Shown one piece after another: positions 7,312 through 37,193 of a DNA stretch of 64,000 bases; the stretch's first letter is position 1; each line of letters begins with the position of its first letter. Below the pieces are notes generated by a model that ran no database searches, was not told the origin of the DNA, and saw nothing but the letters and a program-made list of their open reading frames with translations. The DNA comes from Amycolatopsis sp. cg9 (GTDB lineage Bacteria > Actinomycetota > Actinomycetes > Mycobacteriales > Pseudonocardiaceae). The position numbers and the translations under genes were made by a program. Where the stretch lies: the NCBI RefSeq assembly GCF_041346945.1, contig NZ_CP166850.1, positions 9,842,501 through 9,906,500 on the forward strand, written 5' to 3'.

Positions 7312-8354
7312 TCAGCCGAACCGGTTGTCGCGGCGGGCCGCGTCGGACCGGCGTGGTCTTGATCACCCTCGTCTTCGGCCGGCGCGGCATCGCTGCGGAT
7401 GTCGATCCGCCAACCGGTCAGGCGGGCGGCGAGGCGGGCGTTCTGGCCCTCCTTGCCGATCGCCAGCGACAGCTGGAAGTCCGGCACCACGACGCGGGCG
7501 GTCTTCGCCCGCTCGTCCACGACTCGTACCGAAACAACCTTGGCGGGCGACAGCGCATTCCCGACGAAGCGGGCCGGGTCGTCGGAGAAGTCGATGATGT
7601 CGATCTTCTCGCCGGCCAGCTCGCTCATCACGTTGCGCACGCGCGCGCCGACCGGGCCGATGCAGGCGCCCTTGGCGTTGACGCCCGGCACGGTGGACTT
7701 GACCGCGATCTTGGTGCGGTGCCCCGGTTCGCGCGCGACGGCGGCGATCTCGACGGTCCCGTCGGCGATCTCCGGCACCTCGAGCGCGAACAGCTTGCGC
7801 ACCAGGTTGGGGTGCGAGCGCGAGAGCGTGATCTGCGGGCCGCGGTTGCCGCGCGAGACGGTGACCACGTACGCCTTGATCCGGCTGCCGTGCTCGTAGG
7901 ACTCCCCCGCCACCTGCTCGGCGGACGGCAGCACGCCCTCGGTGTCGCCCACCTGGACCACGACCATGCCGCGGGCGTTGGCGCGGGCGTCGCGCTGGAT
8001 CACGCCGGCGACGATCTCGCCCTCCTTGGTGGAGAACTCGCCGAAGGTCTTCTCGTGCTCGGCGTCGCGCAGCCGCTGCAGGATGACCTGGCGCGCGGTG
8101 GTGGCGGCGATCCGGCCGAAGCCCTCGGGGGTGTCGTCCCACTCCTCGTCAACCTGGCCGTCGTGGGTCAGCGTGTGCGCGAGGACGCGCACCAGGCCCG
8201 TCTTGCGGTCGATGTCGATGCGGGCGTGCGGCTGGTGGCCCTCGGTGTGCTTGTACGCGGTGAGCAAGGCCGTCTCGATGGCCTCGATCACCGTTTCGAA
8301 GGGGATGTCCTTGTCCCGTTCGATCGCCCGCAGCGCGGCGATGTCGACGTTCAC
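7308..8354 (-). CDS. nusA: Transcription termination/antitermination factor NusA
   Basis: 348 residues, the usual length of actinobacterial NusA, which lacks the C-terminal acidic repeats. N-terminal RNA-polymerase-binding domain ([20 protein letters not shown]), S1 domain ([11 protein letters not shown]...[15 protein letters not shown]), KH1 ([28 protein letters not shown]) and KH2 ([34 protein letters not shown]). The ATG overlaps the rimP stop (ATGA). It controls pausing, termination and rRNA antitermination. Confidence 0.98.
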
Positions 8355-8884
8355 TTCGACCCCTTCTCCGTCTCGGCCGCGATGATGCCGGACGCGTCGT
8401 CTTCGAGCAGTTTCAGGTCCTCGGCGGGCGGCTGCTTGAACTCGATCTCCACGACCGCCTTCGCCACGTCGGCGTAGCGGACGTCGCGGAGCTTGCCGCC
8501 TTCGAGGACGCGGGCGGCGGACGCGCCCGCGTGGCCGACCCGGCCGATGAAGGCCGTGCCGTCGGCCGGGGTGATCTTCACGAGCCGGAACCGCGCGCGC
8601 CGCCAGTGGCGGGCCTGCGTGAGCGGGCGGTCGAGCCCCGGCGAGGTGACCTCCAGCGTGTAGGCGCTCGCGAGCACGTGGTCGTTCTCGTCGAGCACCG
8701 CCGAGACCTTGCGGCTGACCTCGGCGACCTCGTCCAGCCCGACCCCGTCGTCGGCGTCGACGACGACCTTGACCAGCTGCCGCCGGCCGGCCTGTTGCAC
8801 CTCGAACGAGTCGAGGTCGAAACCCGCGGCGGTGACGGCTTCGGCCACTATCGGCTGGAGCCGGCTGGCGAGTTCTCCTGGCAC
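8351..8884 (-). CDS. rimP: Ribosome maturation factor RimP
   Basis: 177 residues from a GTG with AAGGAGA seven nt upstream, giving (M)[28 protein letters not shown]. The two RimP domains are visible: [25 protein letters not shown] with SPGLDRPL, then a C-terminal SH3-like part [19 protein letters not shown]. RimP assists 30S subunit assembly. A much longer open frame upstream contains no RimP-like sequence. First gene of the translation operon, divergent from the ferritin-like gene. Confidence 0.95.
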
Positions 8885-9001
8885 GTGGGGGTCTCCTTGC
8901 TCGGACTGGGTGTCGGGTCGGTGGTGGACCAGCTTATCCGGTCGCCCGCTCGGGCCGCGCGAGCGGCGGGGGCGGCCGGGGGCCTGGCAGGATGGGCCGA
9001 C

Positions 9002-9931
9002 GTGACCGGAAGACCGACCGACCTGACCCGTCGTGCCGCCCTCCGCGCGGGGGCGCTGGCCGCGCTGGCCGTCCCGCTCGCCGCCTGCGGGCCCGGCTAC
9101 GACGAAAGCCCCGACCCCCTGCAGCCGTTGCTGGCCGCCGCCGACGCGGACGCCACGGCCGCGAAGGCCCTCGCCAAGGGCGACGACGCCGCCGGCCAGC
9201 TCGCCGCCGCGCGCGCGGCGCACGCGGCCGCGCTCAAGTCCGAAGTGGACCGCTTGAACCGGCCGAAACCGTCGTCGTCACCGGCCCCGCCCGCCCCGGC
9301 GGCGCTGGGCGACCTGAAGGACCGGCTGGCGGCGGCCCGCAAGCAGGCCGAAGACCTCGTCGGCGGCCTGCCGCGCTACCGCGCCGGGCTGGTCGCGGCG
9401 GTGGCGGCGGGCTGCGCGGCGCTGCAGCGCATCGACCCCGCGCTGGGCCCGGGCGAGGACGCGCCGAAGGTGGGCGTCGCGCCCGGGGGCGCGGTGCCCG
9501 CGGAGGTGGTGGACCCGCTGCAGACGGCGCTGGCCGCCGAGCACGCCGCCGTCTGGGTGTACGGACTGGTGGGCGCGTTCCTGCCGGCCGACTTCAGCGA
9601 GGGCGAGAAGAGCGGCGCCGCGGAACACGCCCTGCGCCGCGACTTCCTGCAGACGACGCTGGCGGCCTCGGGGGCGACACCGGTCGCGCCCGAAGCCGCG
9701 TACGTGCCGAAGAACCCGGTGACGGACGCGAAGTCGGCGTCCCAGGTCGTCGCGACGGCCGAGGCCGACTGCGCTTCGGCGTGGCTGGCCGTGGTGAACC
9801 ACACCGACGACGCGGGGCTGCGGACGACGGCGCTGCACGCGCTGGTCGCCGCGTCCCGCCGCGGCACCCCGTGGCGCTCCGAGGCGGGCGAGAAGCCCAC
9901 GGCGATCGCGATGCCAGGCCAGGCGAGCTGA
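9002..9931 (+). CDS. Ferritin-like DUF4439 lipoprotein
   Basis: 309 residues from a GTG. N-terminus TGRPTDLTRRAALRAGALAAL then VPLAACGPG, which has a basic/Arg-Arg pair, a hydrophobic stretch and a lipobox (LAAC). A long Ala/Lys/Arg helical region with a Pro linker (SSSPAPPAPAA) follows, then the DUF4439 four-helix part: LQTALAAEHAAVWVYGLVGA, AAEHALRRDFLQTTL and SAWLAVVNHTD. Family knowledge places DUF4439 in the ferritin-like superfamily; metal binding is not shown here. Divergent from rimP and bounded downstream by a perfect palindrome. Confidence 0.85.
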   Translation: MTGRPTDLTRRAALRAGALAALAVPLAACGPGYDESPDPLQPLLAAADADATAAKALAKGDDAAGQLAAARAAHAAALKSEVDRLNRPKPSSSPAPPAPAALGDLKDRLAAARKQAEDLVGGLPRYRAGLVAAVAAGCAALQRIDPALGPGEDAPKVGVAPGGAVPAEVVDPLQTALAAEHAAVWVYGLVGAFLPADFSEGEKSGAAEHALRRDFLQTTLAASGATPVAPEAAYVPKNPVTDAKSASQVVATAEADCASAWLAVVNHTDDAGLRTTALHALVAASRRGTPWRSEAGEKPTAIAMPGQAS

Positions 9932-12515: not shown

Positions 12516-13988
12516 CTAGGTCCGCGACGCTTCGGCGGGCGCCGAAGCGAACGGCGCCAGGACGCCGGGCACGGCCGCCGCCGCGAACTCGAGTCCTTCG
12601 GCGGCGTCGGCGTCGAGGATCGAGTAGGCGCCGGCGCCCGCCGCGGTCGTCGCGGTGAAGGTCGCGAGCCCGCGGCGGCGCTGGAACACCGACTGCTTCA
12701 CGGTCCAGCCGATCACCCCGTCCCGCGCCAGGACGGCCGTGCTGCGCCGGATCGTGCCCGCGCGCAGCACCAGGTAGCGGCCGCGAGAGCCGTGCCCGAG
12801 GCCGCGGTAGGCGTCCCGGGCCAGCAGGACCGCGACCGGGAGGGCGACGACGGCGAAGGCTCCGCCCAGCACGAGCAGGACGTCGGTGAGCAGCGCGCCG
12901 AGCAGCAGCAGGACCAGCACCGGCACCAGCGCGGTCAGCAGGGCCCAGCGCAGCCGGCGGCCGCGGGCGGCCCGCGGGTGCGGGACCAGCGGGACGTCCG
13001 CGACGGGCTCGCCCGCCACCCGCGTCGCCACGTCCCGGGCCACCGCGCGCGGCGCGACGGGCAGCAGCGTCTTGGCTTCGGTCTTGCCGTCGTCGCGCTT
13101 CATGCCGGTGGCGATGGCGTCCACGCGAGCGGCGCCGGCCAGCCGGGCCCCGAGCGGCTCGACGAGCTCGACCCCGCGCAGGCGCCGCTCCTCGATGGTG
13201 ACCGACCGGGTCGTGAACAGGCCGCGGCGGACGCGCAGGGTGCCACCGGGTTCGCGGTCGAGCCGGTAGTGCCACCACATTTCGACGAACAGGCCCGCGG
13301 CCCCGGCCACGCCGATGACGAGGGCCAGGACCAGCAGGAGCAGGACGCTCGCGACCAGCGGGAGGTCGCCGAAGAGGTCGAGCAGCCACTTCAGCAGGCC
13401 ACCGCCGGCGTCGAACCAGTCCGCGACCTTGAACAGCGCGCCGAACGCGGACAGGCCGAGCGCCGGCGCGACGAACGACACCGGCGCGTACCGGATCCAG
13501 CTCGGATCGAGGCTCGCCAGCGGCCCGTCGGCGGTCTCGGCGCTTCCGGTGGCCGTGCCGCGACGCAGCAGCTCGGTGCGCAGCGCTTCGGCGTCCGCCC
13601 GGGCCAGCGGGGCGAGGGTGATACCGCCCTGGCCGGACTTCTCGTGCTGCCCGGTGCCGACGGTGAGGACGGCGACGCCGAACGCGCGGTGCAGCGGGTT
13701 GGCCGTCAGGTCGGCGGTGCGGATCCGCTCGCGCGGCAGCGACTTGCGCGTGTGGGCGAGGAACCGGAACTCGAGCTCGAGGCGCTCGGGCGTGCAGCGG
13801 TACCGGGTGGACCGCCAGCGGACGAAGTCGGCGAGCACGCCGGCGCCGACGAACAGGACGGCCGCCGGGACGAGCCACGGCGACCGGGTGCCGATCGCGA
13901 TCGGCACCCCCGCCGAGACCGCGATCCCGGCCGCGACGAGGGCGGTGACGCCGAGGGTGCGCCGGTCGAGCCGGCGCCAGCCGGTCAC
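12516..13988 (-). CDS. Bacterial PH-domain membrane protein (YdbT-like)
   Basis: 490 residues from a GTG that overlaps the stop of the upstream gene (GTGA). It alternates pairs of transmembrane helices with bPH2 modules. One is RWRSTRYRCTPERLELEFRF..RERIRTADLTANPLHRAFGVA; the others include TLRVRRGLFTTRSVTIEERR and GRYLVLRAGTIRRSTAVLARDGVIGWTVKQSVFQRRRG. Together with the next upstream gene it forms the common YdbS-YdbT pair. The molecular role is poorly defined in the family; in Bacillus the pair is linked to antimicrobial resistance. Control by the divergent TetR is likely (operators at 14507-14557). Confidence 0.88.
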   Translation of the reverse strand: MTGWRRLDRRTLGVTALVAAGIAVSAGVPIAIGTRSPWLVPAAVLFVGAGVLADFVRWRSTRYRCTPERLELEFRFLAHTRKSLPRERIRTADLTANPLHRAFGVAVLTVGTGQHEKSGQGGITLAPLARADAEALRTELLRRGTATGSAETADGPLASLDPSWIRYAPVSFVAPALGLSAFGALFKVADWFDAGGGLLKWLLDLFGDLPLVASVLLLLVLALVIGVAGAAGLFVEMWWHYRLDREPGGTLRVRRGLFTTRSVTIEERRLRGVELVEPLGARLAGAARVDAIATGMKRDDGKTEAKTLLPVAPRAVARDVATRVAGEPVADVPLVPHPRAARGRRLRWALLTALVPVLVLLLLGALLTDVLLVLGGAFAVVALPVAVLLARDAYRGLGHGSRGRYLVLRAGTIRRSTAVLARDGVIGWTVKQSVFQRRRGLATFTATTAAGAGAYSILDADAAEGLEFAAAAVPGVLAPFASAPAEASRT

Positions 13989-14482
13989 GTCGCGTCCCCG
14001 GGCGTGGCCTCGGTGCGGTCGGTCAGCCGCTCGGCGACCTCCGCCGCGAGCTGGGCGTCCAGGCCGCGGAGCTTGACCGCGCCGCGCGCCGACGCCGTGG
14101 TCACGGTGACCGTGGCGAGCCCGAAGCGCTGCTGCAGCGGCCCGCGCAGCGTGTCGACGGTCTGGACGCGCGAGAGCGGCGCCACCCGCCATTCCTGCCA
14201 CAGGAAGCCCGAGCGGACGTAGACCGCGGTGCCGGTGACCTCCCAGCGGTGCAGGCCGAACCACCACACCGGCAGGACGGCGCACCAGGCGGCGCCGAGC
14301 ACCGCGACCACGGCGGCCGGGACCAGCAGCCAGAACGCCGCCGGCGGGATCAGCACGCCGAGCACCGCGAGGACGAGCACCACCGGCCCGAACACGAGTG
14401 CCCACTGCGTGCGCCACCAGGCGATCGCCCGGCGGTCGAGCGCGTTGCGCGGCGGCCTCAGCCGCACGACACCGTCAGACAC
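13985..14482 (-). CDS. Bacterial PH-domain membrane protein (YdbS-like)
   Basis: 165 residues from a GTG with GGGGG six nt upstream. A short cytoplasmic N-terminus (SDGVVRLRPPRNALDRRAI) is followed by two transmembrane helices (LVFGPVVLVLAVLGVLIPP and FWLLVPAAVVAVLGAAW). A bPH2 domain follows: RWEVTGTAVYVRSGFLWQEW, RVAPLSRVQTVDTLRGPLQQRFGLATVTV. A GTG two codons upstream is possible but too close to the ribosome-binding site. It is cotranslated with the larger PH-domain gene, and its promoter lies beside two TetR-type palindromes. Confidence 0.85.
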   Translation of the reverse strand: MSDGVVRLRPPRNALDRRAIAWWRTQWALVFGPVVLVLAVLGVLIPPAAFWLLVPAAVVAVLGAAWCAVLPVWWFGLHRWEVTGTAVYVRSGFLWQEWRVAPLSRVQTVDTLRGPLQQRFGLATVTVTTASARGAVKLRGLDAQLAAEVAERLTDRTEATPGDAT

Positions 14483-28792: not shown

Positions 28793-30171
28793 GGGGCACG
28801 CTCGCCGGCCGGATCACCCTGGTGTGCCTGGCGGTCGCGGGGGTCGCGGTGATCGTCGCCGGGCTGGTCGCGGCGCGGCTGATCCGGACGACGGCGGACA
28901 ACGTGCTGCAGTCGTCGCTGTCCGCGCAGGCCGACGTGGTTGCGACGCAGCTCGACGAAACCGGCATCGGCAACCGCCTGGGCGTCGGCAAGGTGGCCGA
29001 CGTCGTGCGCGGCCAGGGCATCTCGGTGGTGGTCCGGCGCGCGGGCGGGCAGGCGCTCGGCGAAGCGGTCGCGGTGCAGGCCGCGGGCAAGCTCGGCCTC
29101 GGCGCCGACCACTCGGGGCGCGTCACGGTGGCGGGCTCGCAGTACCTGGTCGAGACGCGGGTGGTCGGCACGCGCGGGGCGGCGTTCGCGCTGGTCCTGC
29201 CCGCCCGCAACGCCGAAGCGACGCAGCGCGCGCTGGTGCGCACCATCGCGCTGGCCCTGGGCATCGGGCTGCTGGTGGCGGCCGCGGCCGGGTTCGTGTC
29301 GGGCCGGCTCCTGGGCCGGCCCCTGCGCCGGGCCGCACTCGCCGCGGGCTCACTGCGCGCGGGACGGCGGGACGTGCGGGTGCCCGTGCAGGGCCCGCGC
29401 GAGGTGGCGGAGGTCGCGGGATCGTTGAATTCCCTGGCCGACGCCCTGGCGGTGAGCGAGTCGCGGCAGCGGGAGTTCCTGCTGTCGGTGTCCCACGAGC
29501 TGCGGACCCCGCTGACGGCGGTGACGGGCTTCGCGGAGGCGATCGCGGACGGCGTGGCGTCCGGTGACGACGCCGTGCGCGCCGGCCAGACGATCCAGCG
29601 CGAGGCAGCCCGCCTCGAACGGCTCGTGACGGACCTGCTGGAGCTGGCGCGGCTGGGTGCCGACGAGTTCCGCCTCGACCTGGCCTCGGTGGACCTGGCC
29701 GCGCTGGTTCGTGATTGTGCGGAGGTGTGGCAGCTGCGCTGCGCCCGGGAAGACGTCCGGCTGTCGGTTTCGGCGCCTGCCTCTCCGGTGCCGGTGGTCG
29801 CGGACGCCCGGCGGCTGCGTCAGGTGGTCGACGGGCTGGCGGAGAACGCGCTGCGGGTGACGCCGGGCGGCGCCCCGATGGTGTTCGCTCTCGAGGTGAC
29901 CGCCTCCGGCGCTTCCCTTTCGGTGCGCGACGGCGGGCCGGGACTGGCCCCGGAGGACTACCCGGTGGCGTTCGAGCGCGGCGTGCTGAACAAGCGCTAC
30001 CGCGACCGGCGGCCGGTGGGATCGGGAATCGGCCTGGCACTGGTCCACGGCCTGGTGACGCGCATGGGCGGAACGCTGACCGCGGGCCCGGCCCCCGAAG
30101 GCGGCGCGGCGTTCACGATGACGTTCCCGTTGGCAGCCTCGACCGCCACGGTTCCCCTCCGGCTGGGCTGA
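28789..30171 (+). CDS. EnvZ-type sensor histidine kinase
   Basis: 460 residues. TM1 (ITLVCLAVAGVAVIVAGLVAA), an extracytoplasmic sensor of about 110 residues with no cysteine, TM2 (TIALALGIGLLVAAAAGFVSG), HAMP (LLGRPLRRAALAAGSLRAG) and HisKA with SVSHELRTPLTAVTGF (His236). The ATPase domain has LAENALRVTPGG (N box), VRDGGPGLAPED (G1) and GSGIGLALVHGLVTRMGG (G2). The stop codon lies inside the first 79-bp repeat element. The signal is unknown; the two small exported proteins upstream are candidates. Confidence 0.95.
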   Translation: MRGTLAGRITLVCLAVAGVAVIVAGLVAARLIRTTADNVLQSSLSAQADVVATQLDETGIGNRLGVGKVADVVRGQGISVVVRRAGGQALGEAVAVQAAGKLGLGADHSGRVTVAGSQYLVETRVVGTRGAAFALVLPARNAEATQRALVRTIALALGIGLLVAAAAGFVSGRLLGRPLRRAALAAGSLRAGRRDVRVPVQGPREVAEVAGSLNSLADALAVSESRQREFLLSVSHELRTPLTAVTGFAEAIADGVASGDDAVRAGQTIQREAARLERLVTDLLELARLGADEFRLDLASVDLAALVRDCAEVWQLRCAREDVRLSVSAPASPVPVVADARRLRQVVDGLAENALRVTPGGAPMVFALEVTASGASLSVRDGGPGLAPEDYPVAFERGVLNKRYRDRRPVGSGIGLALVHGLVTRMGGTLTAGPAPEGGAAFTMTFPLAASTATVPLRLG

Positions 30172-30245
30172 AGGGGACGTTGGTCGCATCAGATGCGCTG
30201 AAGGGGACTTTCCTGGCATCTGATGCCAGGAAAGTCCCCTTCAGC
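30167..30245. repeat. 79-bp composite repeat, copy 1, with 24-bp palindrome
   Basis: A 30-bp unit beginning GCTGAAGGGGACGTTGGTCG (30167-30196) is followed by a perfect inverted repeat with 24-bp arms (30197-30220 and 30222-30245) and a 1-nt loop. The same 79-bp structure recurs at 31283-31361 in the same orientation with seven substitutions. It spans the whole gap between the convergent kinase and AbiEi-like genes and could work as a terminator in both directions. Confidence 0.85.
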
Positions 30246-31202
30246 TCACGCCACCATACGGACCGTTGGCCGGGGAAGCGCTGCAGCCGCCGCGTATGCG
30301 TCCTTGAGCTCTGCGATCACCATCTCGGGGTGGGTGCGCAGGCGCGAAGGCAACGTCGGCAGGACCAGGACTCCCGCGGCCGCGTACCGGGCGTTTCGGG
30401 CCAGAGTCCGCGCGAACCCATCCGCATCGGAGTGGAAGGCGAGCGAATCGATTTCCCACGCCAGTCCAGCCTGCTCGAACCAGGCATCCGGCTTGCCGAC
30501 GTAGGCCCCAGAGCGCGTGAAAAGCGGCCTGTTCCACTTCGGCTCCGGCAGCCCGCTTCGCTTCCAGAGCCGGACCGCGTCGAGCTCAGCCACTGATTCC
30601 GCGCCGCCGGCCATCTCGGCGAGAACCAGACGCGGGACCGCACTACCGCGCCGGCTGCCGCTCGCGAGTTCCCTGGTGAGCTGCTCGTACGTCGTGAAAG
30701 AACGCTGCACGGCTTCGGTCAGAAGAGCGCGAACGGGCCGGAGTTCGGTCATCCGACGGCATGCGTCGAGCACCGAACGGGTCGGTTCGGCGACCGGCAG
30801 ACCACGCCGGAAGAAAACTTTCGGCGTGCGGTGCGTACGTTCGATGTGTACATAGTCGTAGTTGTGCAGCCGCCGGCCATGCGGAACAAGCAAGTGGATG
30901 ACGGAGCAGCCCTCCGGGACGTTCCGCAAGCCCACCGTTCGACAGGCTTCCGTACCGGTGAGGATCGCATCCGGTCCGCCGTACTGGAGAGCGGCCGCGA
31001 TCTGCTGCCGACGCGTCGGCGGAGCATTGGACAGGAGGACGATGCCGGGCAGAAGCCGCGTCCACGGTCCTCCCGGCCCACATCTTCGATAAGCCGTCGT
31101 CGCGGGCACGCCCAGTTCCTCGAGCCGCCGGACGCGGATCACGCCTTCGAGACTGCTGTCCCTGAGTAGTTCGGGGTCTTCGCCCCAATGACCGACTTTC
31201 AC
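30246..31202 (-). CDS. AbiEi-antitoxin-like / DUF559-type protein
   Basis: About 318 residues from GTG 31202; other in-frame starts exist up to 31235. The N-terminal half has the winged-helix layout of AbiEi-type proteins (VIRVRRLEELGVPATTAYRRC, PWTRLLPGIVLLSNAPPTRRQQIAAALQYG, ILTGTEACRTVGL). The C-terminal half has PDAWFEQAGLAWEIDSLAFH followed by a basic helix and AAGVLVLPTLPSRLR, which resembles the Vsr/PD-(D/E)xK nuclease fold of DUF559. Family members are common orphan genes in actinomycetes. No toxin partner is adjacent. It is bracketed by two copies of a 79-bp repeat. Confidence 0.75.
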   Translation of the reverse strand: MKVGHWGEDPELLRDSSLEGVIRVRRLEELGVPATTAYRRCGPGGPWTRLLPGIVLLSNAPPTRRQQIAAALQYGGPDAILTGTEACRTVGLRNVPEGCSVIHLLVPHGRRLHNYDYVHIERTHRTPKVFFRRGLPVAEPTRSVLDACRRMTELRPVRALLTEAVQRSFTTYEQLTRELASGSRRGSAVPRLVLAEMAGGAESVAELDAVRLWKRSGLPEPKWNRPLFTRSGAYVGKPDAWFEQAGLAWEIDSLAFHSDADGFARTLARNARYAAAGVLVLPTLPSRLRTHPEMVIAELKDAYAAAAALPRPTVRMVA

Positions 31203-31282
31203 ACCATGATCGTCACCGCAGCCCGGCAACCACACCAGACCCGAACCGAACGCCTGTGGATAACCGGGGTGGTGTGGACAAA

Positions 31283-31361
31283 GCTGAAGGGGACGTTCGT
31301 CGCACCAGATCCGCTGAAGGGGACTTTCCTCTCATCAGATGCCAGGAACGTCCCCTTCAGC
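31283..31361. repeat. 79-bp composite repeat, copy 2
   Basis: Same layout as copy 1: a 30-bp unit beginning GCTGAAGGGGACGTTCGTCG (31283-31312), then an inverted repeat (31313-31336 and 31338-31361) with three mismatching arm positions and a 1-nt loop. It lies between the divergent AbiEi-like gene and lysR, so a terminator role for converging genes does not explain this copy. Confidence 0.85.
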
Positions 31362-31396: not shown

Positions 31397-32302
31397 GTGG
31401 AGATGCTGCACCTGCGCTACTTCGTCGCGGTCGCCGAGGAGCTGAACTTCTCCGCCGCCGCGCGGAAGCTGCACATGGCCGCGTCGCCGCTCAGCCAGCG
31501 GATCAAGGATCTCGAGCACGAGCTCGGGCAGCAGCTGTTCGACCGCAGCACCCACCACGTCACCCTCACCGAGGCCGGGACCGCGCTGCTGCCGCTCGCG
31601 CGGGACGTGCTCGAGCGGGTCGGCGCCATCCCGTGGAAGCTCGCCGAGGCGACCAAGCCGCAGCGGCGGACCGTTTTCCTCGGGATGCCCGCCGGCGTGC
31701 ACCCCGATCTGCGGGAACGCGTCAACGCCCTCGCCGGGCGCGTCCGGGACGAATACGAGCTCAAACGCTGGCCCGGGACCACCGCCGATCTCGTGCAGGG
31801 GGTCCACGAGGGCAAGCTCGCCCTCGCGCTGGCGCGGCTGCCGGTCACCGATCCGGAGCTGGAGCAGCTGCCCGTGATGACCGAACGGCTCGGGGCCGTC
31901 GTGCCCGCCGAGCTGTTCGCCGGGCGGGACTCCGTCAGCCTGGCCGAGCTGGCCGACTTCCCCTACGTCGCCTCGCCGGGTGAAATCGTCCCCGCCTATT
32001 TCGAGCAGCTGGACCACCAATTGAGCGAACTCGGCGTCAAGAAACGCATCCGGTTGACCAACACCGGGTACAGCGGGACGTCCGAAATCATTTCCAGCGG
32101 CGAGGCGTTTTCCATTTCCATGCTCGACGACAAGTCGCCCATGCACGGCTACCGGCTCGACAACGTCATCGTGCTGCCCTTCAGCGACTTCCGGCCCCAG
32201 CTGGACACCGGCCTGCTCTGGCGGCGCGATCGCACCGACGGCGACCTGCGAAGGCTCGTCGAGGCCGCGAAAGCGATCTTCGCCGAACCCCTCACCAGCT
32301 GA
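31397..32302 (+). CDS. LysR family regulator of the adc/CoA-transferase cluster
   Basis: 301 residues from the GTG giving (M)EMLHLRYFVAVAEELNFSAAARKLHMAASPLSQRIKDLEHELG, with AGGG eight nt upstream; an earlier GTG three codons upstream is possible. Complete LysR HTH and a periplasmic-binding-protein-like effector domain (FLGMPAGVHPDLRERV, LVQGVHEGKLALALARLP, YVASPGEIVPAYFEQL). It reads in the same direction as the metabolic genes, 116 bp upstream of the first. A 29-bp palindrome in that gap is its probable site. Confidence 0.92.
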   Translation: MEMLHLRYFVAVAEELNFSAAARKLHMAASPLSQRIKDLEHELGQQLFDRSTHHVTLTEAGTALLPLARDVLERVGAIPWKLAEATKPQRRTVFLGMPAGVHPDLRERVNALAGRVRDEYELKRWPGTTADLVQGVHEGKLALALARLPVTDPELEQLPVMTERLGAVVPAELFAGRDSVSLAELADFPYVASPGEIVPAYFEQLDHQLSELGVKKRIRLTNTGYSGTSEIISSGEAFSISMLDDKSPMHGYRLDNVIVLPFSDFRPQLDTGLLWRRDRTDGDLRRLVEAAKAIFAEPLTS

Positions 32303-32304
32303 CA

Positions 32305-32333
32305 AATGGTATGACCGCTGCGGTCATACCATT
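32305..32333. promoter_or_regulatory. 29-bp perfect palindrome upstream of the CoA-transferase gene
   Basis: AATGGTATGACCGC (32305-32318) and its exact complement (32320-32333) flank a single T. It starts 2 bp after the lysR stop. It may be the lysR terminator or, because GTATGACC/GGTCATAC looks like an activator or repressor dyad, the operator of the operon that begins at 32419. Confidence 0.65.
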
Positions 32334-32418
32334 GTTCGTATCATGATCATTCCCTTTCGGTGCCACCGCTATTAGCTTCGTGGGTAGAGCGAAACAGCAA
32401 GGCGCGAAAGGACGAACG

Positions 32419-33561
32419 ATGAACAGCACCGGACCGCTGGACGGCGTGCGCGTGATCGACCTCTCGACCGTGGTCATGGGCCCGTACGCGGCCCAGATCC
32501 TGGGCGACCTGGGCGCCGACGTGATCAAGATCGAGTCCCCCGCGGACACGGTGCGGGTGGGCAGCTACCGGACCACGCCGGGCATGACCGCGCTGAACCT
32601 GAACGTGAACCGCAACAAGCGCAGCGTGGCCCTCAACCTCAAGGACGAGACCGAGCGCGAGCAGGCGCTCAAGCTGATCGACACCGCCGACGTGCTGATC
32701 ACCAACATGCGCCCCGGCGCGCTGAGCCGGCTCGGCCTGAACTACGGCGACGTCGCCGAGCGCAACCCGCGGCTGGTCTACGCCCACGCGCAGGGCTTCC
32801 GCGGCGACTCCCCGCAGGCCGGCAACGCCGCCTACGACGAGACCGTGCAGGCCTCCTCCGGCCTGGTCGACGTGGCCAACCGCGCCCTGGGCCAGCCGGT
32901 CTACCTGCCAACGATCATCGGCGACAAGGTTTCGTCGCTGACCATCGCCTACAGCGTGCTCGCCGCGCTGGTCCACCGCGACAAGACCGGCGAGGGTCAG
33001 CAGATCGAGATCCCGATGACCGACACGCTGCTCGCGTTCAACCTGGTCGAACACCTCGCCGGGCACACCTACGAGCCGGCCGAAGGCCCCACCGGGTTCG
33101 GGCTGTCGATGACGAAGGGCCACGCCGCGGTCCACACCAAGGACGGCCTCGCCTGCGTCATCCCCTACAACCCGAAGAACTTCCGCGACTTCTTCGCCGC
33201 GGCCGGGCGCCCGGAGCTGGCCGGGGACCCGCGCGTGAACGGCGAAGCCATCGACCGCGTGGACAACGAGTGGCTGACCGAGCAGATCGCCGCCTGCGCC
33301 CCGGCGCTGACCACCGAGGAGTGGGCCGAGGTCTGCGCGAAGCACAGCATCCCGATGGCGCCGGTGCTCGAACTGGACCGCGCGCACGAGGACCCCTACG
33401 TCCGCGACGGCCACCTGCTCGACACCGTCGAGCACCCGAGCGAGGGCACCATCCGCACGGTCGGCATCCCGGTGAAGTTCTCCGCGACGCCCGGCTCGAT
33501 CCGCCGCCTGGCCCCGCTGGCCGGCCAGGACACCGCCGAAGTCCTCGCCGAACTGGTCTGA
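32419..33561 (+). CDS. Family III CoA-transferase (CaiB/BaiF-type)
   Basis: 380 residues from an ATG with AAAGGA upstream. GPLDGVRVIDLSTVVMGPYAAQILGDLGADVIKIE is the family III opening; NRNKRSVALNLKD and ITNMRPGALSRLGLNYGDV follow. The catalytic Asp is probably Asp140 in AAYDETVQASSGL. Family III enzymes move CoA between two acids through a mixed anhydride without net energy cost. As first gene of the cluster it probably activates the substrate acid using the CoA ester of a later intermediate as donor; that pairing is inferred from context. Confidence 0.93.
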   Translation: MNSTGPLDGVRVIDLSTVVMGPYAAQILGDLGADVIKIESPADTVRVGSYRTTPGMTALNLNVNRNKRSVALNLKDETEREQALKLIDTADVLITNMRPGALSRLGLNYGDVAERNPRLVYAHAQGFRGDSPQAGNAAYDETVQASSGLVDVANRALGQPVYLPTIIGDKVSSLTIAYSVLAALVHRDKTGEGQQIEIPMTDTLLAFNLVEHLAGHTYEPAEGPTGFGLSMTKGHAAVHTKDGLACVIPYNPKNFRDFFAAAGRPELAGDPRVNGEAIDRVDNEWLTEQIAACAPALTTEEWAEVCAKHSIPMAPVLELDRAHEDPYVRDGHLLDTVEHPSEGTIRTVGIPVKFSATPGSIRRLAPLAGQDTAEVLAELV

Positions 33562-33565
33562 ACCA

Positions 33566-33589
33566 CCGCACTTTCACGTGAAAGTGCGG
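33566..33589. repeat. 24-bp perfect palindrome between CoA-transferase and crotonase genes
   Basis: CCGCACTTTCAC followed immediately by its complement GTGAAAGTGCGG, with no loop. It lies 5 bp after the CoA-transferase stop and 18 bp before the next ATG. Possible roles are an intra-operon attenuator or mRNA-stability hairpin, or a protein-binding site. Confidence 0.7.
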
Positions 33590-33607
33590 CACTTGGGAAG
33601 TGAAGTC

Positions 33608-34351
33608 ATGAGTGAAGTACGCACCGAACGGATCGGCGGCACCCTGCTGATCACGATCGACCGCCCGCAGGCTCGCAACGCGGTCGACGCCGCCGTCGCG
33701 GCCGGGCTGGCCGCCGCCCTCGACGAGCTGGAAGCCGATCCCACGCTCCGGGCGGGCGTCCTGACCGGCGCCGAAAACACCTTCAGCGCCGGGATGGACC
33801 TCAAGGCCGCGCTCAAGGGCGAGTCCCCGGAGATCCCGGGCCGCGGGTTCGGCGGCCTGACCGAAGCCGAGCTGGGCAAGCCCCTGATCGCCGCGGTCGA
33901 AGGGTTCGCCATGGGCGGCGGGTTCGAACTGGCGCTGGGCTGCGACCTGATCGTCGCCGCCGAAGACGCGAAGTTCGGCCTCCCCGAGGTGAAGCGTGGG
34001 CTGATCGCCGCGGGCGGTGGCGTGATCCGGCTGCCGAAGCGGATCCCGCACCACCTGGCGATGGAGTTCCTGCTCACCGGCGAGCCGGTCACCGGCCGCC
34101 GCGCCGGGGAGCTGGGCCTGGTCAACCGCGTGACGCCGAGCGGTGACGCCGCCGCCGTCGCGCTGCAGCTGGCCGAGAGGCTGGCGGAGAACGCGCCGCT
34201 CGCGCTCGCCGCCGTCAAGAAGATCGTGCGTGCCGCGGATCCCACCGCCGTGCAGCGCGAAGAAATCAAGAAGCTGATGCAGTCCGCCGACGTCCGCGAA
34301 GGCATGACCGCCTTCGCCGAGCGCCGCGCTCCGAAGTGGACAGGCGAATAG
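33608..34351 (+). CDS. Enoyl-CoA hydratase (crotonase family)
   Basis: 247 residues. Crotonase features: LITIDRPQARNAVDAAV, the oxyanion-hole segment NTFSAGMDLKA, AMGGGFELALGCDLIVAA and AKFGLPEVKRGLIAAGGG. Both hydratase glutamates are present, Glu107 in GGGFE and Glu127 in LPE, equivalent to Glu144 and Glu164 of the rat mitochondrial enzyme, so real hydration of an enoyl-CoA is plausible. It is followed 1 bp later by the decarboxylase gene. Confidence 0.93.
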   Translation: MSEVRTERIGGTLLITIDRPQARNAVDAAVAAGLAAALDELEADPTLRAGVLTGAENTFSAGMDLKAALKGESPEIPGRGFGGLTEAELGKPLIAAVEGFAMGGGFELALGCDLIVAAEDAKFGLPEVKRGLIAAGGGVIRLPKRIPHHLAMEFLLTGEPVTGRRAGELGLVNRVTPSGDAAAVALQLAERLAENAPLALAAVKKIVRAADPTAVQREEIKKLMQSADVREGMTAFAERRAPKWTGE

Positions 34352-34352
34352 G

Positions 34353-35099
34353 ATGAAGATCGACGAAGTCCGCCGGCACGTGACCACTCCCCTGACCGCC
34401 CCGGCGTTCGCGCCGGTGGTCCCGAGGTTCACGAACCGCGAGTACCTGAACATCGTCTACCGCACCGACGCCGACGCCCTGCGCGCGGTCGTCCCGGAGC
34501 CGCTGAAGGTCGAAGAACCCTTGGTGCGCTTCGAAGTCATGAAGATGGGCGACGTCTCCGGCTACGGCCCGTACACCGAGTCCGGCCAGGCGATCGAGGT
34601 CAGCTTCGACGGCGAGCGCGGCGAGTACCTGCACGCGATGTACCTCGACAACTTCCCCGCCACGGCGTCCGGCCGCGAGGTCAGCGCGTACCCGAAGACC
34701 GTCGGCAGCCCGGACCTCTATGTCGACAACGGTGTCCTCGTGGGCACTTTGGACTACGGGACGCTCCGGGTGGCCACCGCGACCATGGGCTACAAGCACC
34801 ACGAGCTGGACACCCGCGAGGCCGAGCGGCAGATCACCGTCCCGACGTTCATGCTCAAGACGATCCCGGGCTACGACGGCGCGCCGCGCGTGCAGGAGCT
34901 GGTCCGCACCGAGATCACCGACGTCGTGGTCAAGGAGGCCTACACCGGCCCCGCGCGGCTGCAGCTGTTCCAGCACGTCCTGGCCCCGCTGGCCGACCTG
35001 CCGGTGCTGGAGGTCGTCGCCGCGAGCCACATCCGCACCGACCTGACGCTCGCCCCGGTCAAGCCGGTCTTCGACTACCTGGAAGGAGCGCGGTCATGA
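34353..35099 (+). CDS. adc: Acetoacetate decarboxylase
   Basis: 248 residues that can be followed along almost the whole clostridial acetoacetate decarboxylase: TPLTAPAF, NREYLNIVYRTDADALR, VPEPLKVEEPLVRFEVM, YTESGQAIEVSF, GEYLHAMYLDN, GTLDYGTLRVATATMGYKHHEL and TGPARLQLFQHVLAPLADLPV. The Schiff-base lysine is at residue 115 (EVSAYPK), exactly the clostridial number, and Glu76 is kept. The neighbouring Lys116 of the clostridial enzyme is Thr here. It should decarboxylate acetoacetate or another beta-keto acid to a ketone and CO2. Its stop overlaps the next start by 4 bp. Confidence 0.93.
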   Translation: MKIDEVRRHVTTPLTAPAFAPVVPRFTNREYLNIVYRTDADALRAVVPEPLKVEEPLVRFEVMKMGDVSGYGPYTESGQAIEVSFDGERGEYLHAMYLDNFPATASGREVSAYPKTVGSPDLYVDNGVLVGTLDYGTLRVATATMGYKHHELDTREAERQITVPTFMLKTIPGYDGAPRVQELVRTEITDVVVKEAYTGPARLQLFQHVLAPLADLPVLEVVAASHIRTDLTLAPVKPVFDYLEGARS

Positions 35100-36001
35100 A
35101 GCACGCGGCAGTCATCGGTGCCGGCACCATCGGCCTGTCCTGGACGGCGCTGTTCGCCCACCACGGCCTGACCGTCCGGGTCACCGACCCCCGCCCGGAC
35201 CTAGCCGAGGCCGTCACCGAGGCACTGAAGACGTTCGCGCCGCACCTGGGCACCACCGCCGCCGAGCTGGCGAGCCGCGTGAGCATCGCCGAGGACGTCA
35301 CTGAATCAGTGAAAGAAGCGGATGTTGTGCAGGAGAACGGGCCCGAGAACGTCGAGTTCAAAAAGGACTTGTTCAAGCAGCTGGTCGAGGCGGCGCCGGA
35401 GCACGCGCTGCTGCTGAGCTCGTCGAGCGCCATCCCGTCGACGGCGTTCACCGAGGAGATCGACGGCAGCCGGGTCCTCATCGGACACCCGTTCAACCCG
35501 CCGCACCTGATCCCGCTGGTCGAGGTCGTCCCCGGCGAGCGCACCAGCGACGAGTCGGTCGAGCGGGCCGTCGAGTTCTACACCTCCCTCGGCCGCACGC
35601 CGGTCGTGGAGCGCAAGGAGATCCCCGGGTTCGTCGGCAACCGGCTGCAGAACGCGCTCAGCCGCGAGGCGATCTACCTCGTCGAGCAGGGTGTCGTGAC
35701 GCCGGAAGAGCTCGACAGGGTCATCACGAACTCGCTCGGGATCCGCTGGGCCACGGTCGGGCCGTTCCTCGGTTCGCACCTCGGCGGCGGCCCCGGTGGC
35801 TACCGGCACATGGCCGAGCACATCGGCAAGTCCATGAAGAAGATGTGGGCCGGGCTGGGCACTCCCAGCCAGAGCCCGGAAGAGCAGGAACGGCTCATCG
35901 AAGCCGTCGAAACCGCTTACGGCTCCTCCACGTACTCGGACCTGGCCGAGACGCGCGACCGCAAGCAGCTCGCCGTTTTGCACGCAGTGGAGGAGAACTG
36001 A
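35096..36001 (+). CDS. 3-hydroxyacyl-CoA dehydrogenase family protein, hydroxyacid-type
   Basis: 301 residues. Rossmann motif GAGTIGLSW (8-16) with Asp31 closing strand 2, indicating NAD preference. Catalytic dyad His131 and Glu143 in HPFNPPHLIPLVEVV, spaced as in classical enzymes, and FVGNRLQNALSREA. The HP-x-NPP-x3-PLVE form is that of L-gulonate 3-dehydrogenase, lambda-crystallin and carnitine dehydrogenase, which oxidise free hydroxy acids, rather than the HFFNP form of CoA-ester enzymes. It probably makes the keto acid for the decarboxylase encoded just upstream. Confidence 0.9.
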   Translation: MKHAAVIGAGTIGLSWTALFAHHGLTVRVTDPRPDLAEAVTEALKTFAPHLGTTAAELASRVSIAEDVTESVKEADVVQENGPENVEFKKDLFKQLVEAAPEHALLLSSSSAIPSTAFTEEIDGSRVLIGHPFNPPHLIPLVEVVPGERTSDESVERAVEFYTSLGRTPVVERKEIPGFVGNRLQNALSREAIYLVEQGVVTPEELDRVITNSLGIRWATVGPFLGSHLGGGPGGYRHMAEHIGKSMKKMWAGLGTPSQSPEEQERLIEAVETAYGSSTYSDLAETRDRKQLAVLHAVEEN

Positions 36002-36002
36002 C

Positions 36003-37193
36003 ATGGAACCGCTCAAGGACAAGCTGACCGCCGACTTCTACGACTTCGAGGCGCTGCTCGCCGACGACGAGCGCAAGCTGCTCGTGAAGGCGCGCGAGTT
36101 CATGACGAACGACGTCAAGCCGCTGGTGAACGAGAACTGGGAAGCCGGCACCTTCCCGCAGGAACTCATCGGGATGTTCCGCGAAAGCGGTCTCGCCGGT
36201 CTGCCCTACGAGGGCTACGGCGAGCACAAGCCCGCCGTCAGCCACCTGCTCACCGGCATGATGGCGATGGAGATGAGCCGCACGGACGCGTCCGTGGCGA
36301 CGTTCTTCGGTGTCCACAACGGACTCGCGATGTACTCCATCTACAGTGGCGGCAGCCAGGAGCAGCGCGACCGCTGGCTCCCCGAAATGGCCGCGATGGA
36401 CAAGATCGGCGCGTTCGCGATGACCGAGCCGCTCGGCGGGTCCGATGTGGCCGGTGGCATGCGCACCACGGCGCAGCGGCAGGGTGACACCTGGATCCTC
36501 AACGGCGCCAAGAAGTGGATCGGCAACGCGACCTTCGCCGACTACGTCGTCGTGTGGGCCCGCGACCTGGCCGACAACCACGTCAAGGGTTTCGTCGTCG
36601 AGAAGGGCACGCCGGGCTTCGTGCCGGAGAAGATCCAGGGCAAGACGGCGTTCCGGATCGTCGAGAACGCCGAGATCACCCTGACCGACGTCCGCGTGCC
36701 GGAGGCGAACCGCCTGCAGGGCATCGACTCCTTCCGGGACGTCGCCGAGATCCTGCGCGCCACCCGCGGCGGGGTCGCCTGGCAGGCCCTCGGTGTGATG
36801 ATCGGCGCGTACGAAGCCGCGCTGGCCTACTCGCAGGAGCGCACGCAGTTCGGCCGGCCGATCGCGCGGTTCCAGCTGGTGCAGGACCTGCTCGTGAAGA
36901 GCCTCGGCAACATCACCGCGTCGTGGGGCATGCTCGTGCAGCTCGCCCGCCTGCAGGACGCCGGGATCTTCAAGGACGAGCAGTCGTCGCTGGCCAAGGC
37001 GTTCGTCACCTCGCGGATGCGTGAGGTCGTCGCCTGGAGCCGGGAGATCTTCGGCGGCAACGGGATCGTGCTCGAATACGACGTCGCGCGGTTCTTCGCC
37101 GACGCCGAGGCGATCTACTCGTTCGAGGGCACGCGCGAGATGAACACCCTGATCGTCGGGAAGGCGATCACGGGACAGTCCGCGTTCGTGTGA
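36003..37193 (+). CDS. Acyl-CoA dehydrogenase, glutaryl-CoA dehydrogenase/ACX4-like clade
   Basis: 396 residues. AFAMTEPLGGSDVAGGMRTTA and GAKKWIGNATFADYVVVWARD are FAD-domain signatures; RTQFGRPIARFQLVQDLL and GGNGIVLEYDVARFFAD mark the C-terminal helical domain. The catalytic base is the Glu in YSFEGTREMNTLIVGKAITG, the position used by glutaryl-CoA dehydrogenase. The KWIGN-TFAD segment also recalls plant short-chain acyl-CoA oxidase ACX4, so a short substrate is likely. Last gene of the cluster; FAD-dependent alpha,beta-desaturation of a CoA ester. Confidence 0.93.
   Translation: MEPLKDKLTADFYDFEALLADDERKLLVKAREFMTNDVKPLVNENWEAGTFPQELIGMFRESGLAGLPYEGYGEHKPAVSHLLTGMMAMEMSRTDASVATFFGVHNGLAMYSIYSGGSQEQRDRWLPEMAAMDKIGAFAMTEPLGGSDVAGGMRTTAQRQGDTWILNGAKKWIGNATFADYVVVWARDLADNHVKGFVVEKGTPGFVPEKIQGKTAFRIVENAEITLTDVRVPEANRLQGIDSFRDVAEILRATRGGVAWQALGVMIGAYEAALAYSQERTQFGRPIARFQLVQDLLVKSLGNITASWGMLVQLARLQDAGIFKDEQSSLAKAFVTSRMREVVAWSREIFGGNGIVLEYDVARFFADAEAIYSFEGTREMNTLIVGKAITGQSAFV

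Follow-up and report, generated by a model that had tools for sequence, protein, structure and literature searches.

A LysR-linked gene cassette of Amycolatopsis sp. cg9 that may turn carboxylic acids into ketones by way of free 3-hydroxy acids

Genes for enzymes that act on coenzyme A (CoA) esters and genes of families that act on free acids lie side by side at one locus of Amycolatopsis sp. cg9 (genome 10.6 Mb), and the question is how the two sets could serve a single route. The locus was studied within a stretch of 64,000 nt, here called the window, to which all unlabelled positions refer. It comprises a lysR-type regulator gene followed by genes for a family III CoA-transferase (CoAT), an enoyl-CoA hydratase (ECH), an acetoacetate decarboxylase (ADC), a protein of the 3-hydroxyacyl-CoA dehydrogenase family (HAD) and an acyl-CoA dehydrogenase (ACAD). 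A preliminary description had listed these six genes as tightly packed on one strand, with neither thiolase nor CoA ligase, and both points were borne out. The genes were recognized by their Pfam matches (Table 1), the successive spacings, with starts taken from the sequence, were 116, 46, 1, -4 and 1 nt (the HAD start overlapping the ADC end by 4 nt), and no thiolase or ligase was found among the six. The reading favoured here, at a probability of roughly one half, is that of a LysR-controlled cassette that would convert an acid to a ketone and CO2 by a beta-oxidation running half on CoA esters and half on free acids.

In the proposed scheme CoAT would activate a carboxylic acid, short or branched, by CoA transfer, ACAD would form the alpha,beta-enoyl-CoA, and ECH would hydrate this to the (S)-3-hydroxyacyl-CoA, a step that might fall to a housekeeping hydratase where the cassette is without ECH. 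CoAT would then act in the manner of CaiB and use the 3-hydroxyacyl-CoA as CoA donor for the next acid molecule; the freed 3-hydroxy acid would be oxidized by HAD with NAD+ to the 3-oxo acid, which ADC, through a Schiff base on Lys115, would convert to ketone and CO2. ACAD and ECH are CoA enzymes, whereas HAD and ADC are members of families that work on free acids (free 3-oxo acids for ADC); the CoA would therefore have to leave between hydration and oxidation. Its removal and its reloading were both assigned to CoAT, since no other enzyme of the cassette comes into question. Each reaction, the CoA cycle, the direction of the route and the ketone are put forward as predictions from sequence comparison. 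That HAD feeds ADC with a free acid appears likelier than the scheme as a whole, while CoA recycling by this CoAT appears less sure. A ketone exit would make most sense for acids whose 3-oxoacyl-CoA resists useful thiolysis. The conversion of butyrate to acetone named in the preliminary description is a guess, for which the sequence offered no basis beyond the short-chain type of ACAD.

By profile, PDB score and tree, HAD appears to belong with the free-acid dehydrogenases (carnitine dehydrogenase, lambda-crystallin). Its best PDB matches were lambda-crystallins, at 147 bits versus 90 for the best 3-hydroxybutyryl-CoA dehydrogenase, and it scored 212 (cut-off 414) and 205 (cut-off 592) bits with carnitine dehydrogenase profiles, 163 bits with a pyridine-carboxylate dehydrogenase profile and at most 113.5 bits with 3-hydroxybutyryl-CoA or FadB-type profiles; it reached the cut-off of none of its NCBIfam profiles. 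In a tree of 28 rows, with long branches and unsure deep joins, three own-genome relatives taken as CoA-type fell outside the HAD group, on long branches, and carnitine dehydrogenase joined at its base. RED1-like proteins of two Streptomyces plasmids fell inside the clade of the window HAD, the supports being 98/95 (14 rows) and 94/93 (10 rows). They were so labelled from their polyketide-type neighbours and from the name "ketoreductase RED1", which stands on 19 of the 120 listed relatives of the window HAD and which we take to be a name for ActVI-ORF1. The HPFNPP motif, linked in the preliminary description to action on free hydroxy acids, was present together with the Ser, His, Glu and Asn residues; as a mark of this HAD it did not hold, being common to the related HADs examined, the own-genome paralogue included. 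The predicted structure (mean pLDDT 61) was too poor for a fold search. Within its own genome the next relative of HAD scored 228 bits, and none of the remaining ones exceeded 73. An own-genome paralogue (44% identical) overlaps an ACAS_N-domain adenylating enzyme at the end of the latter, and was counted for the free-acid reading because the substrate of that neighbour would be a free acid. The run around this paralogue (L133:5199-11188, C1 at about 6.47 Mb) holds an AMP-binding ligase, an ECH-like frame, the ACAS_N adenylating enzyme and an amidohydrolase, and is perhaps a second free-acid pathway.

The recurrence of the cassette was followed through a species-genome scan with the ADC protein, which gave 140 relatives; the best 80 of these are the loci counted below (cited where needed by L numbers), with gene presence scored by tblastn. 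All six genes were present in 63 of the 80 loci, the nearest named ones being from Amycolatopsis, and since that many related loci carry the six together, the set is not a chance assembly. ADC and HAD occurred together in 76 loci, of which 74 also held CoAT (one as a 146-aa remnant, L056) and 74 ACAD. CoAT was missing from L044, where ECH is cut to 56% and a contig end lies about 1.5 kb away, and from L052, where most genes are truncated. lysR alone was missing from three further loci (L019, near a contig end, L055 and L081), and ADC stood alone in four, namely three Mycobacterium records and L080. In the Mycobacterium records (L029, L032, L033) the solitary ADC is 85-86% identical to that of the window, and neither cassette nor operator is present. 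A distance correlation between the cassette genes gave r 0.58-0.94 over 61 loci; as some CoAT rows apparently represent the second CoAT (minimum identity 0.29), it was given no weight. With E 1e-20 as the limit, 69 of the 200 own-family genomes gave an ADC match; at E 1e-30 there were matches in 21 of the 200 genomes from a second family (taken as Streptomycetaceae) and, in a phylum-wide sample of 396 genomes, in the own genome only. Twenty further divergent loci (ADC identity 62-78%) were drawn from the ADC matches in family genomes. Fifteen had ADC with HAD, two had ADC with a distant HAD and three had ADC alone; the usual CoAT type was found in 13 of the 15, a 500-aa type in one more, and ACAD in 12.

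The five enzymes were also found reassembled in other orders. Burkholderia pyrrocinia, B. stagnalis and a Paraburkholderia (L137, L143, L146) have the order ECH-CoAT-ADC-ACAD-HAD, with a CoAT 28% identical to that of the window, and Streptantibioticus pSCAT (L141) has ADC-HAD-ACAD-CoAT-ECH, with a CoAT of 55% identity. In Bradyrhizobium sp. 186 the run is ligase-phasin-ADC-HAD-CoAT-SDR-MFS. In three Streptomyces loci (L046, L056, L059) ACAD of the usual cassette is followed by an additional CoAT that belongs to the Burkholderia lineage; L056 keeps its first CoAT just as the 146-aa remnant (8762-9202), with the Burkholderia-lineage CoAT downstream (12928-14142). A third type of CoAT (498 aa) follows ADC-HAD in L170, and a 51% relative of it follows HAD in Bradyrhizobium CB82 (L138). 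Nothing speaks more strongly for joint action of the three than this repeated pairing of a CoA-transferase with HAD, usually with ADC. A broader proposal, held somewhat more tentatively than the scheme for the window, is that a widespread and distinct beta-oxidation runs without ATP activation or thiolase, with CoA cycled between substrate and 3-hydroxyacyl product by a family III CoA-transferase and a ketone as exit once free acids have been oxidized and decarboxylated, in at least two CoAT lineages and in both Actinomycetota and Pseudomonadota, and that RED1-type (ActVI-ORF1-like) ketoreductases share the HAD clade.

Some variants were noted in their own right. In L113, L114, L172 and L173 ADC lies beside a divergent HAD (33-34%), which in L113 and L114 has Tyr-Met in place of the Phe-Asn of HPFNPP and Asp in place of the catalytic Glu; these possibly form a separate two-gene module. 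On a rhizobial plasmid, the frame L140:6015-6950 is annotated as 3-hydroxyacyl-CoA dehydrogenase, an annotation that looks wrong because Pfam matches the frame to an LDL-receptor class B repeat and to nothing else. At L140:9724-11489 (Rhizobium) two distant ADC-family proteins adjoin an ACAD-ECH-CoAT-HAD-ligase run, and one of the L140 ADC-family proteins scored 115 bits with PF06314 and 181 with the MppR profile (cut-off 380).

Regulation of the cassette was approached through lysR, which adjoins it in most related loci, and through the lysR-CoAT spacer, which holds a perfect palindrome with the core GGTATGACC-N5-GGTCATACC. The palindrome is operator-like and is conserved upstream of CoAT in related loci. 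Over 70 lysR-CoAT spacers (that of the window and 69 others), with 18 core bases scored, there were no mismatches in 33, one in 21, two in 11, three in one and four or more in four. At up to two of 18 mismatches the core was thus present in 65 of 70 spacers, versus none of 3500 simple shuffles, the best of which had three mismatches. The outer arms co-vary, three pairs just outside or at the edge of the core being complementary in 56, 55 and 58 of 60 spacers, with A-T or G-C depending on the locus. Across 1.55 Mb of locus sequence 68 sites had at most two mismatches, and 67 of them lay within 400 bp upstream of CoAT; L046:15379 was the sole such site in the 80 loci away from the lysR-CoAT region. 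The window has one site at up to three mismatches (shuffles average 0.13), and the own genome one exact copy, that of the cassette. Among the 200 family genomes, 40 sites with at most one mismatch were found in 37 genomes (control sites in 3); all 25 exact matches lay within 3 kb of an ADC match, and 4 of the 15 one-mismatch sites lay near ADC. Because the exact sites, in the own genome and in the family genomes, sit at the cassette or at ADC, the strict regulon seems to be this cassette alone, and binding of LysR to the palindrome is predicted. A wider regulon that might have named the substrate was set aside in view of the single exact copy in the own genome. Allowing two mismatches brought two sites per strand there for the pattern and as many for the reversed control; on that ground the second site, C1:8146571 (two mismatches), inside a large open frame, was taken as chance. 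The site is kept in L055 and L064, where no lysR is adjacent, and is present with four mismatches in L070, L076 and L079. No site within four mismatches was found in the 1500 bp scanned upstream in L074, in Kutzneria L081 or in the four ADC-alone loci. Among the 25 of 52 profile matches listed for lysR, no NCBIfam equivalog exceeded its cut-off.

ADC, given as full-length in the preliminary description, was indeed so; it exceeded curated cut-offs (PF06314 271 versus 29.8 bits; PRK02265 367.6 versus 150 bits) and aligned without gaps to PDB 3bh2 (337 bits), which we take to be the Clostridium acetobutylicum enzyme. Lys115, presumably the Schiff-base lysine, was present in 80 of 80 orthologues, as were Glu61 and Glu76; Arg29, which like the two glutamates presumably has an active-site role, was present in 79, with one unresolved. 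All four are present in the window, and ADC would decarboxylate a 3-oxo acid. The importance of a second lysine, Lys116, is disputed. This residue is replaced by Thr in the window ADC, which differs in this from C. acetobutylicum Adc, and position 116 of the 80 orthologues is Thr in 43, Val in 35, Ile in one and Ala in one, never Lys. Lys116 is present in L115-L118 and in Streptantibioticus L141; the Burkholderia-type loci L137, L143 and L146 have Val. A suberin proteome study names an ADC of Rhodanobacter that neighbours acyl-CoA dehydrogenases, judged solely from the order of the accessions (PMC5158114).

Both hydratase glutamates that the preliminary description had noted in ECH are present. 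ECH exceeded the cut-off of its subfamily profile (PRK08252, 366.7 versus 282 bits), the first Glu being present in 69 of 70 orthologues (one unresolved) and the second in all 70. Five genomes without ECH in the cassette had, elsewhere, a best ECH of 44-58% identity; general crotonases may hence supply hydration for these cassettes, or it may not be needed. ACAD had been described as glutaryl-CoA dehydrogenase- or ACX4-like, and the second half of that description held: its closest match was ACX4 (PDB 2ix5, 326 bits). The position that is Arg in the aligned 2eba, 3sf6 and 3swo is Ala99 in the window, and among 72 resolved orthologues it is Ala in 54, Ser in 17 and Thr in one. As Arg94 of glutaryl-CoA dehydrogenase is presumably the residue that binds the gamma-carboxylate, ACAD is not a glutaryl-CoA dehydrogenase, and a route from glutarate through crotonyl-CoA to acetone was dropped on the same ground.

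Table 1. Features of the cassette in the window
Feature	Position	Strand	Details
lysR-type regulator	31397..32302	+	GTG start 31397; PF00126 (HTH_1) and PF03466 (LysR_substrate)
Palindromic operator candidate AATGGTATGACCGCTGCGGTCATACCATT	32305..32333	.	14-bp arms, one central base
Family III CoA-transferase (CoAT)	32419..33561	+	ATG start; 380 aa; PF02515 (CoA_transf_3) 339 bits; catalytic Asp169
Enoyl-CoA hydratase (ECH)	33608..34351	+	ATG start; PRK08252 366.7 bits; ECH_1 198 bits; both hydratase Glu
Acetoacetate decarboxylase (ADC)	34353..35099	+	ATG start; PF06314 (ADC) 271 bits; Lys115, Thr116
3-Hydroxyacyl-CoA-dehydrogenase-family protein (HAD), putative free-acid type	35096..36001	+	ATG start; 3HCDH_N 157 bits and 3HCDH 52 bits
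ACX4-like short-chain acyl-CoA dehydrogenase (ACAD)	36003..37193	+	ATG start; Acyl-CoA_dh N/M/C; catalytic Glu375

Several findings weigh against the scheme. ECH was missing from six of the 80 loci (L058, L060, L063, L064, which is also without lysR, L079, and L082, which is also without the start of a damaged ADC) and ACAD from two (L057, L075). ECH was found in just six of the 15 divergent ADC-HAD loci and missing from nine, and L169 is ADC-HAD alone. Because of these losses and of L169 the full five-step line is not obligatory. The pathway reading in the preliminary description is thus partly supported: its chemistry gives the best account of the cassette, HAD groups with free-acid dehydrogenases and the gene set recurs, while the loci without ECH or ACAD speak against a strict five-step line. 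CoA ligase is present in some variants (L116, L140), and in Streptomyces sioyaensis L057 the ACAD slot (7690-9658) is taken by an HsaA-like flavin monooxygenase (153 bits versus a cut-off of 450) and a flavin reductase. CoAT is nearer to formyl-CoA transferase (205 bits) than to CaiB (145.9 bits; cut-off 413), and the top profile of HAD is PRK06129, named 3-hydroxyacyl-CoA dehydrogenase (258 bits; cut-off 347, not reached). Of the 69 ADC-bearing family genomes 29 have an operator with at most one mismatch near ADC and 40 do not. No ketone-using gene is among the six; a search of the own genome for acetone carboxylase gave no match, and as the control genomes gave none either, this negative carries no weight.

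CoAT carries the CoA_transf_3 domain and the catalytic Asp of family III (Asp in 73 of 74 orthologues, Gly in one), and failed to reach the cut-off in any of its 7 NCBIfam matches, the best being formyl-CoA, succinyl-CoA:mesaconate and succinate-glutarate CoA-transferase, all far under their cut-offs. That it would accept 3-hydroxyacyl-CoA as CoA donor, in a CaiB-like cycle, is suggested by gene content. The profiles are also in keeping with a ketone route that has no CoA recycling, in which CoAT would load from succinyl-CoA or acetyl-CoA and a thioesterase elsewhere would free the hydroxyacyl-CoA, and the ligases of some variants indicate that loading and unloading are separable. This explanation fares best among the rivals and is nevertheless unlikely: the six genes include no thioesterase, and HAD is found paired with three types of CoAT, in most cases together with ADC. 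The commonest extra neighbour family was found in 27 of 80 loci, and those spanning Amycolatopsis and other genera in at most 15 of 80, as called by a rough gene caller that missed some genes.

Less probable still is that a free 3-hydroxy acid is the true substrate, converted by HAD and ADC to the ketone, with CoAT, ECH and ACAD only feeding in related acids or side products. ADC-HAD is indeed the smallest recurring unit, as in L169, with ECH and ACAD dispensable, and a Shinella neighbourhood of 3-hydroxybutyrate dehydrogenase, ADC and patatin forms a parallel two-step module. CoAT and ACAD were each present in 74 of the 76 clusters, however, and all five enzymes reassemble in other orders.

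An ordinary beta-oxidation operon, with HAD acting on CoA esters and ADC merely clearing acetoacetate, is improbable. It would agree with the 3HCDH Pfam domains, with PRK06129 as best profile and with the name 3-hydroxyacyl-CoA dehydrogenase borne by most database relatives of HAD, but HAD scores higher with carnitine dehydrogenase than with the 3-hydroxybutyryl-CoA and FadB-type profiles, the three CoA-type relatives of the own genome fall outside its clade (on long branches), and thiolase is wanting. A pathway from gamma-butyrobetaine or carnitine to trimethylaminoacetone, by CaiA/CaiB/CaiD-type enzymes, carnitine dehydrogenase and ADC, is the most improbable, for although the enzyme families match caiA, caiB and caiD (PMC2131755), HAD is carnitine-dehydrogenase-like and the Burkholderia HAD scores 327 of the 414 bits required by the L-carnitine dehydrogenase profile, CoAT, ECH and ACAD lie far under carnitine-specific cut-offs, no widespread extra gene fit for a transporter was seen among neighbours (not annotated singly, from the rough gene caller), and the L148 carnitine dehydrogenase sits with a 3-keto-acid cleavage protein rather than ADC.

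The scheme of acid to ketone with CoA recycling has parallels in known systems. In Clostridium acetobutylicum, CoA transfer by CtfAB is followed by Adc to give acetone; CtfAB, however, belongs to the family I CoA-transferases and works on acetoacetyl-CoA, and that route includes no HAD step. In the Shinella neighbourhood a 3-hydroxy acid is converted to the 3-oxo acid and then to the ketone, with ADC last. The dehydrogenase there is presumably an SDR, of another family than HAD, and no CoAT, ACAD or ECH is annotated beside it; in rhizobial matches, ADC and patatin were the only genes under the matches. CaiB is, we assume, a family III CoA-transferase, and the window CoAT misses its cut-off. 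The cai system (CaiA, CaiB, CaiD) of Escherichia coli and Proteus likewise combines an acyl-CoA dehydrogenase, a CoA-transferase and a crotonase, and cycles CoA between products and substrates, which is a published precedent for CoA cycling (PMC2131755). Unlike the window cassette, cai has no HAD, ADC or ketone, and has a ligase (CaiC) and a transporter (CaiT). Aerobic L-carnitine degradation resembles the later steps, L-carnitine dehydrogenase oxidizing a free 3-hydroxy acid to a free 3-oxo acid (PMC2131755); it differs in that the L148 neighbour is annotated as 3-keto-5-aminohexanoate cleavage protein, not ADC. ActVI-ORF1 is of the HAD family, has a His-Glu dyad and converts a bicyclic intermediate to (S)-DNPA, a free acetic acid (PMC4498746). 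ActVI-ORF1 and Med-ORF12 are thus like the window HAD in family and in a free-acid product (PMC4498746), the link to the HAD clade being drawn through the RED1-like proteins and not through the ActVI-ORF1 sequence itself. They differ in being biosynthetic and in working in the reductive direction. We know of no ADC or CoAT partner for these ketoreductases.

No promoter-like site was found at the cassette, and the one terminator-like site, on the minus strand, was not above chance. The CoAT-ECH spacer (about 33566-33589) holds a perfect palindrome. A similar CTTTCACGTGAAAG stretch occurs in part of the Amycolatopsis loci inspected, with two copies each in L007 and L012, and because of this partial presence it gives the impression of a dispersed repeat that does not belong to the cassette. 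Upstream, two copies of a CTGAAGGGGACNTTC repeat element (30168-30244 and 31284-31360) flank a minus-strand open reading frame (30246-31235) that is AbiEi-like by eye; the repeat gave 6 matches at up to one mismatch versus 0 expected.

The enzyme families are each known, and the new part would be their combination, the operator and the recurrence, no description of which was found in a search of open-licence papers. If the scheme is correct, soil bacteria would have a ketone-forming, ATP-sparing branch of fatty and branched acid catabolism that standard annotation hides behind beta-oxidation names. The cassette would then also offer a compact set of enzymes for ketone production from acids, and its regulator and operator a pair usable as a reporter of the inducing acid. 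Natural ADCs without Lys116 would be a further gain, with a bearing on the tuning of the active-site lysine.

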